The translations under genes were made by a program, and so were the position numbers. From positions 1 through 64,000 of the forward strand of contig JALDRK010000002.1 in assembly GCA_031315915.1 (NCBI GenBank): a DNA stretch of 64,000 bases, written 5' to 3'. The notes under the pieces were generated by a model. It made no database searches and was not told the DNA's origin. It saw only the letters and a list, made by a program, of their open reading frames with translations. Each line of letters begins with the position of its first letter. The stretch's first letter is position 1. The DNA comes from Nitrospirales bacterium. Its GTDB lineage: Bacteria > Nitrospirota > Nitrospiria > Nitrospirales > UBA8639. This document shows positions 46,217-55,108 of the stretch, one piece after another.

Positions 46217-46552
46217 AACACCTCCCGGACTTTTCCGTAAAACATTTTCAAAAGCCATCTTGAATGTTTCATCCTATCCTCAGTGCAGCTTTGTCATTCT
46301 GTCCTCTTCTTTTCATCCTGAGCCAGGCCGAAGAACTTCGTCACACGGTGGAGAAACCCCGTAACTCCAATTCTCCCCTGACCTCGAAATTTCCAGGGCA
46401 ACATTCCCATTTATCCACGCTTCATAATTCATTCCAGACCCTAAATTTTCCCTGTACTTATTTCAAGTCTTCCGGTACATTTCCGAAAATCCATTTTTGC
46501 TCCTACATGCCAAACTCTATGGACATTACCTGAACAACCCCCTGGCAGGTTC
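46217..46552. other. Spacer between rsmJ and hsdR with a dispersed repeat
   Basis: No gene seen. 46313-46344 has TCATCCTGAG then CGAAGAACTTCG, a relaxed copy of the type B repeat. A weak GCAGG precedes hsdR. Confidence 0.45.
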
Positions 46553-49336
46553 ATGCCCACACCTGAAGACCAAGCACGCGAAACAATCGACACTCTGCTG
46601 ACCCAAGCAGGGTGGGTAATTCAGGACAACAACCAAGTCAACTTATCCGCAGGGCGCAGCGTAGCCATCCGAAACTTTCCTTTGCAGCAGGGCCATGGCT
46701 TTTGCCGACTATCTGTTTTATATTGATGGCAAAGCCGCCGGAGTCGTGAAGCCAAACGAAAAGGGGCCACACTCACCGGGGTCCGAAATTCGATCCGGCC
46801 AAATACAGCGGGGGATTTCCGCCATCACTACCCGTCTACATTCGCCCCCTCCCCTTCCTCTATCGCTCAACGGGAAACCCGTTTTACCAACGAACTCGAC
46901 CCTACCCCACGGTACCCCACGTTTAGCTTTCATAAACCCGAGATGTTGGCTAAATGGTTGGAGGAGGCCCGATTAGAGGAAGTCGACAATTCCACCCACG
47001 GATAAGGCTGCCTAAGAGGTGGAAACATTACAAATCCTTCTCCACTTTCGCAAACGCCTTCAAAACCTGCCACCACTAAAGGAAGAAGGTCTCTGGCCCG
47101 CGCAAAAAGTCGCCATCAATAATCTGGAACAGTCTTGGCCGAACCGCCCCCGCGCACTTATTCAAAATGGCCACCGGCAGCGGCAAAACCTTCACCGCCA
47201 TCCACGGCCATCTACCGGCTCATCAAATTTGCCGGGGCCAGGCGCGTCTTATTCCTGGTGGATCGGGGCAACCTGGGCGACCAAACACTCAAAAAATTCC
47301 AGCAATATGTCTCCCCCGTACAACAATTTTAAATTTACCGGGAACTGTCGTCCAGCGGCTCAGCAACAACACGCTCGACACCACCGCGCGGGTCTGCATC
47401 AACACCATCCAGCGCATGTTCTCCATGCTTAAAGGTAAAGAACTCGCCGCGAAGACGACGAAGTCTCCGCCGCAGGCGAATCATTGTTCAAAAAAGCCCG
47501 AACCTATTGACTACAACCCGGCCATCCCCATTGAAACATTCGACGTCATCATCACCGACGAATGCCACCGCTCCATCTATAACCTCTGGGCACAGGTGCT
47601 GGATTACTTCGACGCCTACCTCATCGGCCTCACCGCCACGCCCAGCAAACAAACCTTTGGCTTCTTCCACCAAAACCTGGTCATGGAATATCCCCACGAG
47701 CAGGCCGTGGCCGACGGTGTCAACGTCAACTACGACGTCTACCGCATCCGCACCGCCATTTCCGAAGCCGGCTCAAAAGTGGACGCGGGGTTTTATGTGG
47801 AAAAGCGCGAGCGGGAGACCCGAAAAACCCGGTGGGAACAATTAGACGATGACTTCGCTTACGACCCCAACCAACTCGACCGGGACGTCGTCGCCCAGGA
47901 TCAAATCCGCACCATCGTCTCTTCGGGACAAACTTCCGACAGAAATCTTCCAAGGCCGTACTGAAGTGCCAAAACTCTCGTCTTCGCCAAAGACGACGCT
48001 CACGCGGAAACGATCGTGAAATCCTGCGAGAAGAATTCGCAAGAAGGCAACGACTTCGCTCAAAAATCACCTACCGCACCACCGGGCCAATCCCAAGGAC
48101 CTCATTAAATCTTCCGCAACAGCTACCACCCACGCATCGCCGTCACCGTGGACATGATCGCCACCGGCACCGACATCAAACCGGTGGAAATCGTCCTCTT
48201 CATGCAACCGTCAAATCCCGCTCCTTCTTCGAACAAATGAAAGGGCGGGGCGTGCGCGTTATGCAAAACCGGACGACCTCCAAGCCGTCACCCGAGGCGC
48301 CACCACCAAAGACCATTTCGTCATCGTGGATGCCGTGGGCGTTTGCGAACAGGATAAAACCGATGCCCGGCCAATGGAGAAAAAACCCACCGTCTCGTTT
48401 GAAAAACTCCTGCAAGCCGTCGCCCTGGGCAACACCGAAGAAGACGTTCTCACCACCATCGCCGGTCGCCTTGCCCGCATGGAACACCGGCTGTCTGCAA
48501 CGGACGAACAACAAATTCTCAAAGCCAGCGGGGGCCTTACCGCTAAAGACTTGAGCCACCGTCTTCTGGATGCCCTTGACCCCGATAAAATTGATCATGA
48601 TGCCATGGATGAAAAGAGTACCGTTATCGCAAGAAACAATCTAATCCAAGACGCCGTCAAGCCTTTTCACGATCCCAAACTGCGCGAACTCCTCGTCACC
48701 ATCAAAAAGAACAACGAAATCACCATCGACCACGTCAGCCAGGATCAAATCATCGAAGCGGGGTTCAGTGCCGAAGCTCTGGAACGGGCAAAAGGCATCG
48801 TCTACTCCTTCGAGCAATTCATAGAAGACCACAAGGACGAAATCACGGCATTGCAGGTGCTCTATAGCAAGCCCTATAAGGCCAGACTCACCTTCGAACA
48901 CATCAAAGAATTGGCCCAAGCCATCGAGAAGCCGCCCTATCTCTGGAACGAATCGCAACTCTGGCAGGCCTATGCGTCATTGGAAAAATCCAAAGTCAAA
49001 GGGGCCAATGGCAAACGCATCTTCACCGACTTAGTTTCATTGGTTCGTTATGCCATACACCAGGAAAATGAACTGGTCCCCTTTCCCGAAATAGTCCAAG
49101 TCAACTTCAACGCCTGGTTGGCCCAGCAGCAGGCAAGCGGAAAGCCGTTCACTTCCGAACAAATTCACTGGCTCGAAATGATCCGCGACCACATTGCCGC
49201 GAATCTCAGCATCGACACGGAAGATTTTGACTATGCCCCATTTGCACAAGAAGGTGGATTAGGGAAAGTGCATCAGGTCTTTGGAGACAAGTTGAGCAAG
49301 ATTATTGAAGAATTGAATGGGACGTTGGCGGCGTGA
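46553..49336 (+). pseudogene. hsdR: Type I restriction enzyme R subunit, multiply frameshifted
   Basis: ATP-dependent DNA translocase/nuclease subunit. It starts 'MPTPEDQARETIDTLLTQAG', the usual HsdR N-terminus, then changes frame at several points before ~48.3 kb (the first near 46695, at a T-run). Helicase motifs survive in separate frames: 'ATGSGKT' near 47168, 'ITDECHRSIYNLW' near 47550, 'GLTATPSKQTFGFF' near 47625. From 48326 one frame holds ~336 C-terminal residues of EcoEI_R_C type. At least eight indels are needed, in both directions. If real, no full-length HsdR is made. Confidence 0.85.
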
Positions 49337-50751
49337 GAACTACGTCTTCGAGAGTCACTGAGACTGAAACCGATCTTGTTCATCCTAGCCACCTGGCAGG
49401 CAGTATTTTGCCTACTAAATGGGAGTGGGTGAGTTTGGGCAGTATTTGCAAGACCACAAGTGGCGGGACACCAAGCCGTAAGAACAAGGAATATTTCAAA
49501 GGCAATATCCCTTGGGTTAAGTCCGGCGAACTGCCGGATGGACCTATTTCGAAAATTGAAGAATACATAACTGCAGAGGCAGTAAAGAACTCAAACGCAA
49601 AAAAGTTTCCGAAAGGCACTCTCCTTATTGCACTTTATGGAGCAACTGTAGGAAAACTGGGCGTTTTAAACAAGGAGGCCGCGACAAATCAAGCGGTTTG
49701 CGCAATCTTCCCACCTGAGCAACTCAAAACAAAATACCTTTTCTGGTACTTGCGCTATGTCCGTTCAGATCTGATTGCACAAGCAATCGGAGGAGCACAG
49801 CCGAATATCAGTCAGGGCATTCTTAGGAATCTCCTGATTCCAGTCGCACCTCCTGAGGAACAAAAACGTATTGTCGCGGAAATTGAAAAACAATTCTCCC
49901 GCCTCGATGAAGCCGTCGCCAATCTCAAACGGATTAAGGCCAACCTCAAACGCTATAAAGCCGCCGTCCTAAAAGCCGCCGTCGAAGGCAAACTCACGGA
50001 GAATTGGCGCAAAGCCCACCCCGACATCGAACCCGCCGCCAAACTCCTCGATCGCATCCTCACCGCCCGCCGCGCACAGTTGATTGGTAAAGGGTCGTAT
50101 AAAGATCCAGCCCCCCCAGATTCATCCGAGCTTCCTGAACTGCCACCCAATTGGATCTGGGCAACTTCCATGCAAATATTTATGGAGGTCAAAGATGGTA
50201 CCCATAATACTCCGCAATATAGACAAACGGGAGTTCCCTTTATCACACAGAAGCATATCAAGCCTGGGGGCTTGGTTTTCGAGGATTTTAAGTTGATTTC
50301 TGAAGCAGACCATGAACAGTTTTACAAGAGATCTAATCCAGAAAGTGGAGACATCCTGGTTTCAATGATAGGAGTCAATAGGGGTCAGAGTTGTGTCGTT
50401 AATACCGATGCCACTTTCAGCATAAAAAACGTAGGACTTTTTAAGCCAAATCATTTATTAACAAATAATAAATTCTTGCAGCTTTATTTTTCCTCTTTTG
50501 TCGGACAAAGGTTAATCTTGCAACGTTCCAAAGGAGGAGCACAACCTTTTATAGGACTATCAGAGTTACGCAACTGGCCGCTTCCCCTTCCACCCCTAGC
50601 TGAGCAATATTTAATTGTGGAAGAAGTCGAGCGCCATATCTCCATCATCGACGAACTTGAAACAACCGTCGAAGCTAACCTCATCCGCGCCAACCGCCTC
50701 CGCCAATCAATCCTCAGTAAGGCTTTTGCCGGAGGTCTAAAGGAAAACTGA
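49333..50751 (+). CDS. hsdS: Type I restriction-modification specificity subunit
   Basis: A 472-residue DNA-recognition subunit. Two target-recognition domains (about residues 20-165 and 255-425) each end in a conserved coiled-coil region: 'PPEEQKRIVAEIEKQFSRLD' with 'YKAAVLKAAVEGKL', and 'LPPLAEQYLIVEEVERHISI' with 'SILSKAFAGGL'. A GTG start overlaps the hsdR stop (GTGA), so the genes are coupled. This frame is intact. The target sequence cannot be inferred. Confidence 0.94.
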   Translation: MRTTSSRVTETETDLVHPSHLAGSILPTKWEWVSLGSICKTTSGGTPSRKNKEYFKGNIPWVKSGELPDGPISKIEEYITAEAVKNSNAKKFPKGTLLIALYGATVGKLGVLNKEAATNQAVCAIFPPEQLKTKYLFWYLRYVRSDLIAQAIGGAQPNISQGILRNLLIPVAPPEEQKRIVAEIEKQFSRLDEAVANLKRIKANLKRYKAAVLKAAVEGKLTENWRKAHPDIEPAAKLLDRILTARRAQLIGKGSYKDPAPPDSSELPELPPNWIWATSMQIFMEVKDGTHNTPQYRQTGVPFITQKHIKPGGLVFEDFKLISEADHEQFYKRSNPESGDILVSMIGVNRGQSCVVNTDATFSIKNVGLFKPNHLLTNNKFLQLYFSSFVGQRLILQRSKGGAQPFIGLSELRNWPLPLPPLAEQYLIVEEVERHISIIDELETTVEANLIRANRLRQSILSKAFAGGLKEN

Positions 50752-50754
50752 AAT

Positions 50755-51450
50755 ATGCTCGCACCCGAAACTTTTAACCCAGAATTTTTGAGACCTGCAG
50801 AGCGTGTGAGCGAGCCTGATCCAAGAAATCTAACTTTTGTAATCTTCGATTCGAGCACAAATGATTATCGCCACCTAAACATTATGGATTTTTATGAGGC
50901 GGTATCAGCGTACCGACTCAACTTGACAGTTCCCCCAAAAATCATTTTTCAATTTGAAACCGCCAAAAACCTCTATCTCTATTCCTGGTTTGTCTACCGT
51001 TTCTATCCAATCTGCGAACACCATGCCTTGGCTTGTCTGGAGCTTGCGCTTCGGGAACGCTATAAAGATGAAGCCTCGAAAGAATATCGTAATAGGGACG
51101 GAAAGCTATACTTGAAAGGAGCACTTCGTTTCGCAATTGCTTGTGGCCATGTAAAACATGAGGGATTTTCAAGTTGTCATGAGACAGTGAAGAGGCGAGC
51201 GACAGATCGCTATGAGCAAGAAAAACTGGAGGAATTGCATACGAAAGGGTTGAAGGAAATCGCCTACGACTATTCCGACCTTGAAGTGACAGATGCTGAC
51301 CGCAACCGGGAATACCTCGATTTTCTCTCAAATTTTTTGCCTAATCTTCGAAACGAATATGCTCACGGTAGCACCACGCTTGACAATCAAGCCCTGACGA
51401 CTCTGGAAGTTGTTTCAGAAATCATCAACCAGATTTACCCAGAACAGTAG
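50755..51450 (+). CDS. HEPN-like protein inside the hsd operon
   Basis: A 231-residue protein 3 bp after hsdS. The C-terminal 'FLPNLRNEYAHGSTTL' carries R199-N-E-Y-A-H204, matching the HEPN RX4-6H RNase motif with Asn after Arg; it sits in a helical region as expected. N-terminal to it are 'ALACLELALRERYKDEASKE' and 'ALRFAIACGHVKHEGF'. No ATPase domain. PrrC, a HEPN anticodon nuclease, lies inside the EcoprrI type I locus, so the arrangement has precedent, but PrrC also has an ABC ATPase. A toxic RNase held by Hsd proteins is an inference. Confidence 0.65.
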   Translation: MLAPETFNPEFLRPAERVSEPDPRNLTFVIFDSSTNDYRHLNIMDFYEAVSAYRLNLTVPPKIIFQFETAKNLYLYSWFVYRFYPICEHHALACLELALRERYKDEASKEYRNRDGKLYLKGALRFAIACGHVKHEGFSSCHETVKRRATDRYEQEKLEELHTKGLKEIAYDYSDLEVTDADRNREYLDFLSNFLPNLRNEYAHGSTTLDNQALTTLEVVSEIINQIYPEQ

Positions 51451-51453
51451 CCC

Positions 51454-51636
51454 ATGGAACCGAAACAAATCGTTCAAAAACTCTGGAATTACTGTAACGT
51501 CCTGCGCGACGACGGGATGAGCTATGGTGATTATCCTTCGGGGAAGTTCAGGACAGGTCCTTCGACATGGCATAGAGCAGGCGCAAAACAATGGCCGTAT
51601 TTGCTCTTTCTGAAAACGGCTGATGAGCGACTATAA
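51454..51636 (+). pseudogene. Fragment of hsdM (5' end) with inserted repeat
   Basis: Opens 'QIVQKLWNYCNVLRDDGMSY' like the N-terminus of hsdM at 53612, then carries an in-frame insertion of about 45 bp ('PSGKFRTGPSTW') containing GTTCAGGACAGG flanked by two CCTTCG, then continues 'YLLFLKTADER' and stops. DNA similarity to the intact copy is high. It begins 4 bp after the HEPN-like gene, in the place where hsdM would be expected. Confidence 0.8.
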
Positions 51637-51716
51637 AATATAATGGCCCTTTCTGAAGTTATCGGTTTTCTTCTTTGCATGCCTGGGCTATTATAGGAGT
51701 ACAAGCGAGGGTGATC

Positions 51717-51968
51717 ATGGACGAACTGGGTCTTCTCAAACAAATCACGGTGAATCCTCAAATTTTCGAAGGCAAGCCGATTATTCGTGGACGCCGCCTG
51801 GCTGTCGAACATATCCTCGGCATGTTGGCCGCCGGTGATACACCTGAAACGATCCTTCAAGGGTATCCATGGTTAGAACCAGCGGATATCCAAGCCTGCC
51901 TGGCCTATGCCAACCGGCTCGTCGGTCACGAACGGATTGAGCCGTTCCCCATCGAATCACCTTCGTGA
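51717..51968 (+). CDS. DUF433 antitoxin-like protein
   Basis: An 83-residue DUF433 protein: 'ITVNPQIFEGKPIIRGRRLA', 'VEHILGMLAAGDTPETILQG'. Antitoxin partner type of DUF5615. GAGGG lies before the ATG at 51717. Its stop overlaps a truncated toxin start (GTGA). The partner is broken, so this copy is an orphan. Confidence 0.9.
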   Translation: MDELGLLKQITVNPQIFEGKPIIRGRRLAVEHILGMLAAGDTPETILQGYPWLEPADIQACLAYANRLVGHERIEPFPIESPS

Positions 51969-52009
51969 AACTCCTGCTCGATACTTGCATCTGTCGAAGT
52001 GTGCGCTGA
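51965..52009 (+). pseudogene. Truncated DUF5615 toxin (14 codons)
   Basis: GTG overlaps the DUF433 stop and codes 'VKLLLDTCICRSVR' then TGA. The first residues match the 'MKLLLD' start of PIN-like toxins, after which the gene is lost. The following ATG abuts the TGA. Confidence 0.65.
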
Positions 52010-52354
52010 ATGAACCTACCCAACGGAGCACATGCCGTCGTCGGAGCCGATAAGGTCAGAGATTACCTGCTTGACGTAACTCACCCCGATGGATTCGGAA
52101 AAGCAGCGTTTTTCACGGCCATGGGCTTCCAGCGAGAGGCATGGGAGGAGTTAGCCAATGCCCTGCGACAGATCGCATGGGACTCTGCTGTCACAAAAAG
52201 CATGACATCCATGCACGGGCAGAAGTATATTGTAGATGGCATTATCCCGACCCCGATGGGTCAGAACGTCATTGTGCGAACCATATGGATTGTTGATAAG
52301 GGCGAAGATCGGCCTCGTTTCGTGACGGCCTATCCACAAGAACGGGAGCCATGA
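52010..52354 (+). CDS. DUF6883 family protein
   Basis: A 114-residue soluble protein. 'LPNGAHAVVGADKVRDYLLD', 'HPDGFGKAAFFTAMGF', 'KYIVDGIIPTPMGQNVIVRT' and 'WIVDKGEDRPRFVTAYP' fit DUF6883, a family often next to DUF4926. Role unknown, possibly a toxin or antitoxin. The ATG directly follows the toxin-remnant stop; the last bases overlap the next gene (ATGA). Confidence 0.8.
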   Translation: MNLPNGAHAVVGADKVRDYLLDVTHPDGFGKAAFFTAMGFQREAWEELANALRQIAWDSAVTKSMTSMHGQKYIVDGIIPTPMGQNVIVRTIWIVDKGEDRPRFVTAYPQEREP

Positions 52355-52641
52355 CCATGATCAAAGAACATGACCGAATTGTGCTAGCCATTGATGTTCC
52401 TTCCGAAGGCCTTGTGGCCGGAGATGTCGGTACGATCGTTCATGTTTATCGTGACGATCAGGCCTACGAAGTGGAATTTACCACCTTGGAAGGGAAAACC
52501 GCCGCAGTCGTGACATTGGAAGTGAGCCAGGTTCGTCCAGTTGGTAAACGCGAGATCACTCACGCTCGCGAGCTTGCTCGCGATAACCCAAAGACCTCAC
52601 GTCACGTCAGCGATCGGAATCTGGTTTATAGATACAGGTAG
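52351..52641 (+). CDS. DUF4926 family protein
   Basis: A 96-residue protein with the SH3-like DUF4926 core ('GDVGTIVHVYRDDQAYEVEF', 'TTLEGKTAAVVTLEVSQVRP'). It overlaps the DUF6883 stop by 4 bp, so both are coupled; the true start may be the ATG at 52357. The pair is likely a two-gene module of unknown activity. Confidence 0.85.
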   Translation: MTMIKEHDRIVLAIDVPSEGLVAGDVGTIVHVYRDDQAYEVEFTTLEGKTAAVVTLEVSQVRPVGKREITHARELARDNPKTSRHVSDRNLVYRYR

Positions 52642-52689
52642 CGGGACACCTCGATTTGTGACCCCCTATCCCTTGAAACGGAGGATACT

Positions 52690-52926
52690 ATGATTCAGGA
52701 GTTAGAAGACGTCATTCTGGAATCCGACCTTCCTCAGAACGGACTTCAGCGAGGTGACATTGGCACCATCGTCCTAGTTCATCAGGAAGGCAAAGGATAC
52801 GAGATGGAATTTACCACTTGGATGTGGCGAAACGGTTGCCGTTGTCACGCTGCCGGCTTCTCAGGTTCGACCAGCCACAAACGTGAGATTGCCCATGCGC
52901 GTGATCTGGCAGATTCGACACCCTAA
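52690..52926 (+). pseudogene. Second DUF4926 gene, frameshifted
   Basis: Begins 'EDVILESDLPQNGLQRGDIG', then leaves frame after 'MEFTT'. The expected 'GETVAVVTLPASQVRPATN' is in another frame and 'REIAHARDLA' returns to the first. A diverged paralogue of the preceding gene. GGAG precedes the ATG. Confidence 0.75.
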
Positions 52927-52927
52927 C

Positions 52928-53170
52928 ATGAAACTTACTTTCGATCCTCGCTATAGCATCGCGTATTTGCGTCTGCATACCCAGACGGCCGAAGTCGAGA
53001 CCATTCATGTCAGCGACGAGATTAATATTGATCTTGCACCTGACGGCACCGTCTACGGGATCGAACTGCTCAATGCCAACGCGCAGTTTGCTCGGGAAGA
53101 TGCAGGACAGCTTGTCCTCCACAATGAGGCGACCGGCGAATGGACCGAAGTCAAACTGCCGCTTGCCTGA
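52928..53170 (+). CDS. DUF2283 family protein
   Basis: An 80-residue protein. 'LTFDPRYSIAYLRLH' and 'INIDLAPDGTVYGIELLNA' are DUF2283 features, a small beta-rich fold common next to toxin-antitoxin genes. The frame is open from 52883, but the ATG at 52928 fits homologues. Confidence 0.88.
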   Translation: MKLTFDPRYSIAYLRLHTQTAEVETIHVSDEINIDLAPDGTVYGIELLNANAQFAREDAGQLVLHNEATGEWTEVKLPLA

Positions 53171-53209
53171 GCAGCTGATTCTCATCCAACTCACAGCAGG
53201 AGCAACCAT

Positions 53210-53404
53210 ATGGCCGAAAAAGTAAAAGTCTGGTTTGATGAAGAGGGAGATTTTCTGGAGATGCAATTCAAAGATACCCCCGGCTTTATGCGCTAAACTG
53301 CCAACGATGCCGTCATGGAGCGCGTGGATGAGCAGGGCCATGTTGTAGGCTTCAGCGTCCCTGGTGTCAGCCGTTTCAAAAAAGATCATCATCTTAGAAG
53401 CTGA
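53210..53404 (+). pseudogene. DUF2283 gene with an internal stop
   Basis: Reads 'VKVWFDEEGDFLEMQFKD', stops at TAA (53294-53296) where homologues usually have Glu, then continues in the same frame 'ANDAVMERVDEQGHVVGFSV' to the natural stop at 53404. A single G-to-T change explains it, so this is a nonsense mutation and not an indel. Confidence 0.78.
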
Positions 53405-53611: not shown

Positions 53612-55108
53612 ATGAGCTCCTCGGCCATCGTGCAAAAGCTTTGGAACTTCTGTAACGTCCTCCGCGACGACGGAATGAGCTATGGCGACTATGTCGAGCA
53701 ATTGACCTATTTGCTATTTCTCAAGATGACGGACGAGCGGACGAGGCCGCCCTATTCCCAATCCAGTGGCATACCGGACAAATATAGCTGGCCCAGTCTC
53801 CTAAAGAAGGATGGGGACGAACTCTTCGATCATTACCGCCATCTCCTTGATGAGCTAGGCAAAGAAAAAGGCTTGCTCGGACTGATCTTCACGAAAGCTC
53901 AGAACAAATTCCAGGACCCGGCCAAGCTGCGGCGTCTAATTGTGGATCTGATCGATAAGGAAAACTGGTCGATCATGAGTGCTGATGTGAAGGGGGATGC
54001 CTACGAAGGTCTGCTGGAAAAGAATGCGCAGGATACGAAGACCGGCGCAGGCCAGTACTTCACTCCCCGTCCGCTGATTCAAGCCATTGTGGACGTCATT
54101 CATCCCAAACCCGGCGAAACGATTTGTGATCCTGCCTGCGGGACAGGCGGTTTTCTCTTGGCCGCCCATGATTACCTGGTGAATCACAATTTGAATCTCA
54201 CGAAGGACCAGAAGAAGCAACTGAAGGAAAGCACGCTCAGGGGATGTGAACTGGTTCAAGGAGTCGCCCGGTTGTGTGCCATGAATTTGCTGCTCCATGG
54301 TATTGGAAGTCAGGAGTACGAGCCTATTGTCGTGGGCGATTCCTTAGCGGCTGATCCCGGCGACCGGTATAATATTGTGCTGACCATCCCGCCGTTTGGA
54401 AAGAAGAGCAGCACCACGATCGTGGGTGAGGAAGGCCAGGTCTCGAAGGAACGGGACATTGTTGAGCGGGATGATTTTTGGGCCACCACCTCAAATAAAC
54501 AGCTCAACTTCGTCCAGCATGTGAAAACTCTTCTGAAGCAGAACGGGCGAGCCGCCATAGTCGTGCCGGATAACGTGCTCTTCGAAGGTGGCGCCGGAGA
54601 GACGATCCGACGAAAACTTTTGCATGAATGCGATGTGCACACGTTGCTGCGCCTCCCAACCGGCTTGTTCTATGCCCAAGGTGTGAAAGCCAATGTGCTG
54701 TTTTTCGATAAAAGGCCTGGTGGGGAATCGGCATCCACCCAAAAGCTATGGATCTATGATCTGCGCACGAATAAACACTTTACTCTGAAAACCGACCCCT
54801 TGAAACGTGAAGATCTGGATGAATTTGTGAAGTGCTACAACCCGGCAAACCGGAATACTCGCAAACCGACTTGGTCAGAGAAACACCCTGAAGGCCGTTG
54901 GCGGGCTTATGACTATTCCGAGTTAGTCTCCCGCGACAAGGCCAGCCTCGACCTCTTTTGGCTCAAAGACGACTCCCTCCAAGACTCCGCCAATCTGCCC
55001 GATCCCGACGTGATCGCCCAGGAAATCGTCGACGACCTCGAAGCCGCCCTCGAACAATTCCGCCTGATTGCCAATGATTTAAATAGGGAGAATTCTACTG
55101 ATGAATGA
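53612..55108 (+). CDS. hsdM: Type I methyltransferase subunit with altered catalytic motif
   Basis: A 498-residue N6-adenine methyltransferase subunit. N-terminal helical domain ('IVQKLWNFCNVLRDDGMSYG'), SAM motif I DPACGTGG (173-180), then 'VLTIPPFGKKSS': motif IV reads I259-P-P-F where N-P-P-F/Y is expected. The Asn positions the target adenine amino group, so Ile should abolish methylation. The ATG at 53612 fits homologues; the frame extends upstream to 53483. It is separated from hsdS by the HEPN-like gene and cassette. Otherwise intact. Confidence 0.92.
   Translation: MSSSAIVQKLWNFCNVLRDDGMSYGDYVEQLTYLLFLKMTDERTRPPYSQSSGIPDKYSWPSLLKKDGDELFDHYRHLLDELGKEKGLLGLIFTKAQNKFQDPAKLRRLIVDLIDKENWSIMSADVKGDAYEGLLEKNAQDTKTGAGQYFTPRPLIQAIVDVIHPKPGETICDPACGTGGFLLAAHDYLVNHNLNLTKDQKKQLKESTLRGCELVQGVARLCAMNLLLHGIGSQEYEPIVVGDSLAADPGDRYNIVLTIPPFGKKSSTTIVGEEGQVSKERDIVERDDFWATTSNKQLNFVQHVKTLLKQNGRAAIVVPDNVLFEGGAGETIRRKLLHECDVHTLLRLPTGLFYAQGVKANVLFFDKRPGGESASTQKLWIYDLRTNKHFTLKTDPLKREDLDEFVKCYNPANRNTRKPTWSEKHPEGRWRAYDYSELVSRDKASLDLFWLKDDSLQDSANLPDPDVIAQEIVDDLEAALEQFRLIANDLNRENSTDE

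Follow-up and report, generated by a model that had tools for sequence, protein, structure and literature searches.

The gene at positions 50755–51450 of the window, that is, of the whole 64-kb stretch of DNA analysed here, probably encodes a stand-alone HEPN RNase that would act as a single-gene effector and be carried as mobile cargo in a slot presumably filled via recombination at the start of hsdM. The family of its product is nameless in Pfam, NCBIfam, and PADLOC and is a new family of predicted HEPN RNases. In the type I restriction-modification lineage of the window, the gap between hsdS and hsdM, where the gene lies, has taken up toxin and defence genes time and again and can be called a cargo slot. 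The locus has the following layout:

46547–49336, + strand: hsdR, distributed over three reading frames, with frameshifts and several in-frame stops (or sequence errors)
49333–50751, + strand: hsdS, intact, 472 aa, with a Methylase_S domain
50755–51450, + strand: HEPN-family gene, 231 aa, with the motifs Ex3R (E96, R100) and RNxxxH (R199–H204)
51454–51630, + strand: hsdM 5'-end remnant, hsdM codons 1–43 with an insert after codon 27
51675–53392, + strand: newer cargo segment of several short ORFs, the last of them with an in-frame stop
53612–55108, + strand: hsdM, intact, with HsdM_N and N6_Mtase domains, 2.2 kb beyond the remnant

The open reading frame and its 231-aa product were confirmed. 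As an earlier note on this DNA had described, the gene begins 3 bp past hsdS (the hsdS stop codon TGA ends at 50751, and the ATG is at 50755) and is closely followed by a real 5' fragment of hsdM; the distance to the fragment is 3 bp and not 4 bp as given there, with the TAG stop codon ending at 51450 and the ATG of the fragment at 51454. The short ORFs of the newer cargo segment are, we assume from inspection by eye, DUF433/DUF4926/DUF2283-like. The broken hsdR is the single copy of this lineage in the whole genome; it looks like a pseudogene, for which both decay and sequence error are possible.

The window protein had no match in Pfam, NCBIfam, or PADLOC scans, and phmmer and profile searches of PDB sequences returned chance matches only (thymidylate synthase, pseudokinase). 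In 396 genomes of the phylum, six homologues were found in addition to that of the window; one of the six was marginal. A seven-row alignment used to scan 84,980 species genomes revealed 34 loci, and an alignment scan of IMG/VR revealed three. No homologue was found in the viral scan with the single sequence as a query or by tblastn against phages, and tblastn against plasmids found one copy, which was IS-interrupted and adjoined a DUF3320 helicase gene. The family members are present across several phyla. The alignment used for the conservation and context counts contained 39 proteins.

The sequence R199-N-E-Y-A-H204, which the earlier note had read as the RX4-6H active site of a HEPN-type RNase candidate, is the sole Rx4H in the window protein. 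One such motif means little by chance, and the weight comes from its conservation: R199 and H204 were each retained in 37 of the 39 proteins, and N200 and G205 each in 38. The two exceptions to R199/H204, L039 and L043, are degenerate in appearance. The second, acidic motif Ex3[KR] was present without exception (E96 and K/R100, both 39/39). These two motifs, Rx4-6H and Ex3[KR], define active HEPN domains (PMC3710099), and the asparagine N200 provides the polar residue after the arginine. Several members also matched Pfam families of the HEPN clan over the R-H region (Apea, 0.00078; RiboL-PSP, 0.0092; Swt1, 0.025). The HMMER matches of several members to PF18739, PF18735, and PF18731 were below the cut-off, and for PF18739 this applied to every member tested, with the best score of 20.3 bits versus the gathering cut-off of 24.4. 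Profile-profile comparison (hhalign) with the DUF4145 and Apea alignments gave weak probabilities of 4%–10%, with controls below 1%; the weak match to DUF4145 aligned the R-H motif region.

AlphaFold2 predicted an all-helical full-length window protein (pLDDT 94, pTM 0.87). R199 was placed near the end of helix 187–203 with H204 right behind it, and E96 was in helix 83–103. Foldseek comparison of this model with the PDB yielded no significant match and drew ABC transporters and other long-helix proteins. Since this search was uninformative, a compact homologue, L051, was taken instead and its catalytic domain modelled (pLDDT 84). Ranks 1–4 of the Foldseek matches of this domain in the PDB were occupied by the HEPN proteins 7ae9 (probability 0.69, TM 0.49/0.51), 1jog, 2hsb, and 8xeh. 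Lower in the list were 5yep, 7bxo, Csm6', and Las1, of which the last two are HEPN proteins too. The predicted models have the helical bundle fold of HEPN type, with TM values up to 0.5; the Foldseek E-values were all >1, so the evidence is the consistent HEPN identity of the matches rather than the score. The assignment of the window protein to the predicted HEPN fold is well supported because of the motif conservation, the Ex3[KR] motif, the HEPN-clan Pfam matches, and the structural models.

On this basis, the protein would be a metal-independent RNase of the HEPN superfamily, consisting of a conserved N-terminal segment of about 60 residues and a helical HEPN domain with a putative active site formed by E96/R100 and R199-N200-H204. 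It is probably dimeric in action and would cut RNA once a trigger signal arrives. The most likely role is that of a toxin-like or abortive-infection effector encoded by a single gene, comparable to HEPN proteins of the ApeA-like kind.

Seven of the 39 homologues are located between hsdS and hsdM in a single type I lineage, defined by HsdM proteins with about 75%–82% identity to that of the window. Besides the window itself, these are G070, BMS3Bbin05, Curvibacter, Ramlibacter, and two Hydrogenophilales. The wide flanks of the G070 locus contain hsdR, hsdS, and hsdM, and its HEPN gene is separated from hsdM by 3 bp; only the hsdM side is present in BMS3Bbin05, where the contig ends. The homologue of Pelagicoccus was found a few genes past a different type I locus, and no type I genes adjoin the remaining 31 of the 39. 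The slot occupants fall into three or more parts of the family tree; mapped onto the tree, the slot label requires five changes, of which well-supported branches force at least four. It is simplest to assume that the HEPN family travels between genomes and entered the slot several times, as did other defence and toxin genes.

Outside type I loci, homologues adjoin SIR2-HerA (L040), an Hhe-like helicase (L020), and PDC candidates (L026 and L032), and PtuA is also among their neighbours. TniQ-like genes adjoin the homologue in L021 and an integrase-like gene that in L027 (both by eye), three homologues (L045–L047) are in viral contigs, and prophages are among the settings. A GIY-YIG gene is near the HEPN gene in four loci. 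In L030, L032, and L041, a GIY-YIG-like gene directly adjoins the HEPN gene, with a 4-bp overlap in L030, where it matches PDC-S14 of PADLOC. In six Gallionellaceae (L013, L014, L015, L016, L018, and L019), the HEPN gene occupies one conserved site next to a 3-hydroxyacyl-CoA dehydrogenase gene, with a thiolase gene downstream in most of them (names assigned by eye). This fatty-acid gene setting is no obvious defence context, and it would suit a non-catalytic HEPN protein that binds RNA or has a regulatory role, for example, in controlling the expression of adjoining genes. Some HEPN domains do lack catalysis (PMC3710099), but both catalytic motifs are near-invariant in the family, unlike in inactive HEPN families, which makes such a function highly improbable.

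The content of the slot was surveyed in forty loci from the phylum carrying the window HsdM or its nearer or farther relatives. The gap contents vary between loci and are mostly encoded on the same strand. They include DarT-macro (DarTG), an Mrr-like nuclease, GmrSD, an AAA ATPase, HicA (HicAB), AbiEii (AbiE), Fic, and a ResIII helicase, as well as a HEPN protein (by Pfam) with an MNT-like partner (by eye) in L113. Large TIR/TPR-like proteins (by eye) are encoded in the slots of L004 (7041–9011) and L103 (5426–7399); that of L004 had no Pfam match.

The occurrence of an HEPN-MNT pair in the same slot, the abundance of toxin-antitoxin genes among the cargo, and the common pairing of HEPN toxins with MNT antitoxins would be consistent with the window protein being a toxin whose antitoxin is encoded by a neighbouring gene. 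We consider this rather improbable, as no partner is common to the homologues: the recurrent neighbours are hsd genes in 7–8 loci, the housekeeping genes of Gallionellaceae, and GIY-YIG genes in four loci.

The same survey bears on the relation between the HEPN gene and the restriction system. The earlier note had considered the gene an operon member and not a bystander, and suggested a backup effector released upon failure of the Hsd complex. In such a scheme, known for PrrC-EcoprrI, the Hsd complex would hold the HEPN RNase inactive and free it when restriction is blocked. The location of the gene in the same operon, just past hsdS, agrees with this, and a functional tie is possible given that all seven slot loci belong to one HsdM lineage. 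HEPN genes in restriction-modification operons are also well known, with at least 16 clades linked to such systems (PMC3710099), and PrrC is a precedent. On the other hand, most homologues lack any link to type I loci, an outcome that the earlier note had named as refuting its proposal; many unrelated genes occupy the same slot; apart from the HEPN domain and about 60 further residues, the window protein offers no domain that could contact Hsd; and hsdR is broken in the window while the HEPN gene is intact. Hsd control of the PrrC kind is weakly suggested by gene position, and we regard it as unlikely; no positive evidence for release upon Hsd failure was found in this locus with its pseudogene-like hsdR. 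Since type I linkage concerns a minority of homologues and the slot harbours unrelated genes, a cargo slot fits better than a dedicated Hsd-guarded effector. The HEPN gene is most likely a passenger in the restriction operon and does not belong to the restriction enzyme itself.

Remnants of the hsdM 5' end were present in the slot in 20 of the 34 loci of the near HsdM lineage and in none of the 9 loci of the more distant lineage. In the 34 near-lineage loci, 27 remnants matched codons 1–60 and none matched codons 121–420; matches to codons 61–120 were found in three loci. Where the start could be placed, it lies in most remnants at most about 40 bp away from the stop codon that ends the preceding cargo gene, and the intact hsdM likewise often starts this close to a cargo stop codon. 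The remnant in the window resembles the intact hsdM of its own locus less closely than it does hsdM starts from other genomes, and 14 of 16 strong remnants are likewise nearer to an hsdM start from another genome, the exceptions being L096 and L102. This speaks against hsdM having been duplicated in place to give every remnant. L143 of Pseudomonadota has the same pattern with one more remnant. The remnant-bearing loci include the window (51454–51630), L092, L101, L084, L011, and L143. Several remnants are broken near codon 27 by a short insert encoding PSGKFRTG, PSARLRTG, or PSAKLRTG; such inserts interrupt the remnants of the window (51535–51588), L092, and L101. The insert resembles a small dispersed repeat (CCTTCGG..AAG.TCAGGACAGG). 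A description of hsdM 5' remnants after cargo genes was not found in the open-access literature searched.

The remnant pattern is what would be left if cargo had been inserted serially via recombination at the start of hsdM, a route that we infer from these sequence comparisons. Each new cargo would join at this point and be translated just ahead of hsdM, and the older hsdM start would be left behind as a remnant. The older state of this locus was probably hsdS-HEPN-hsdM, since G070 still has the direct HEPN-hsdM junction, and a later insertion would have parted the HEPN gene from hsdM. A bolder extension of the proposed route, about which we are evenly divided, is that defence and toxin cassettes accumulate in the gap as an array, with a copy of the hsdM 5' end closing each cassette, and that the HEPN gene is one of them. 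The displaced starts would then be scars able to offer homology for the next exchange, and the operon could be a gene-capture platform that works without an integrase.

These results add a nameless family of predicted HEPN RNases, recurring in defence settings, to the candidate single-gene effectors. They also indicate that a gene can be linked to a restriction operon because of a cargo slot, with no functional guard behind the linkage. If the recombination reading of the hsdM 5' remnants is true, they would explain how hsd operons gather unrelated defence genes and would be a record of past insertions readable from the sequence.

Among known systems, the anticodon nuclease PrrC of EcoprrI is similar in being an HEPN RNase encoded inside a type I hsd operon. 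The window protein differs from it in lacking an ABC ATPase (231 aa, no Pfam domain), as was correctly noted before. The homologues were not regularly linked to a functional type I system, as would be expected of a PrrC-type nuclease: most homologues are outside hsd loci (7 of 39 in the slot, one beside another hsd locus), hsdR of the window is broken, and there was no sign of Hsd control. The rlo/mlo genes of Campylobacter jejuni are an already known case of variable genes inside type I loci, located between hsdR and hsdS and in the hsdS-hsdM gap (Miller et al. 2005, cited in PMC5183652). They belong to another type I family and are other genes, and PMC5183652 makes no mention of repeated hsdM 5' remnants. 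In contrast to HEPN-MNT systems (HepT-MntA), no MNT partner adjoins the HEPN gene of the window; the likeness lies in the fold, since the solved structures nearest to the compact domain are of this kind, in the nature of the predicted protein as an HEPN RNase toxin, and in the presence of such a pair in the L113 slot. The ApeA-like HEPN proteins (PF18739) represent a separate sequence family, for which the new family remains below the gathering score, and the two PF18739 proteins fetched are larger (367–440 aa versus 231 aa). PF18739 is nevertheless the best Pfam match of several members, located at Rx4H, and ApeA is likewise an HEPN effector, found embedded in restriction-modification operons of epsilonproteobacteria (PMC3710099).
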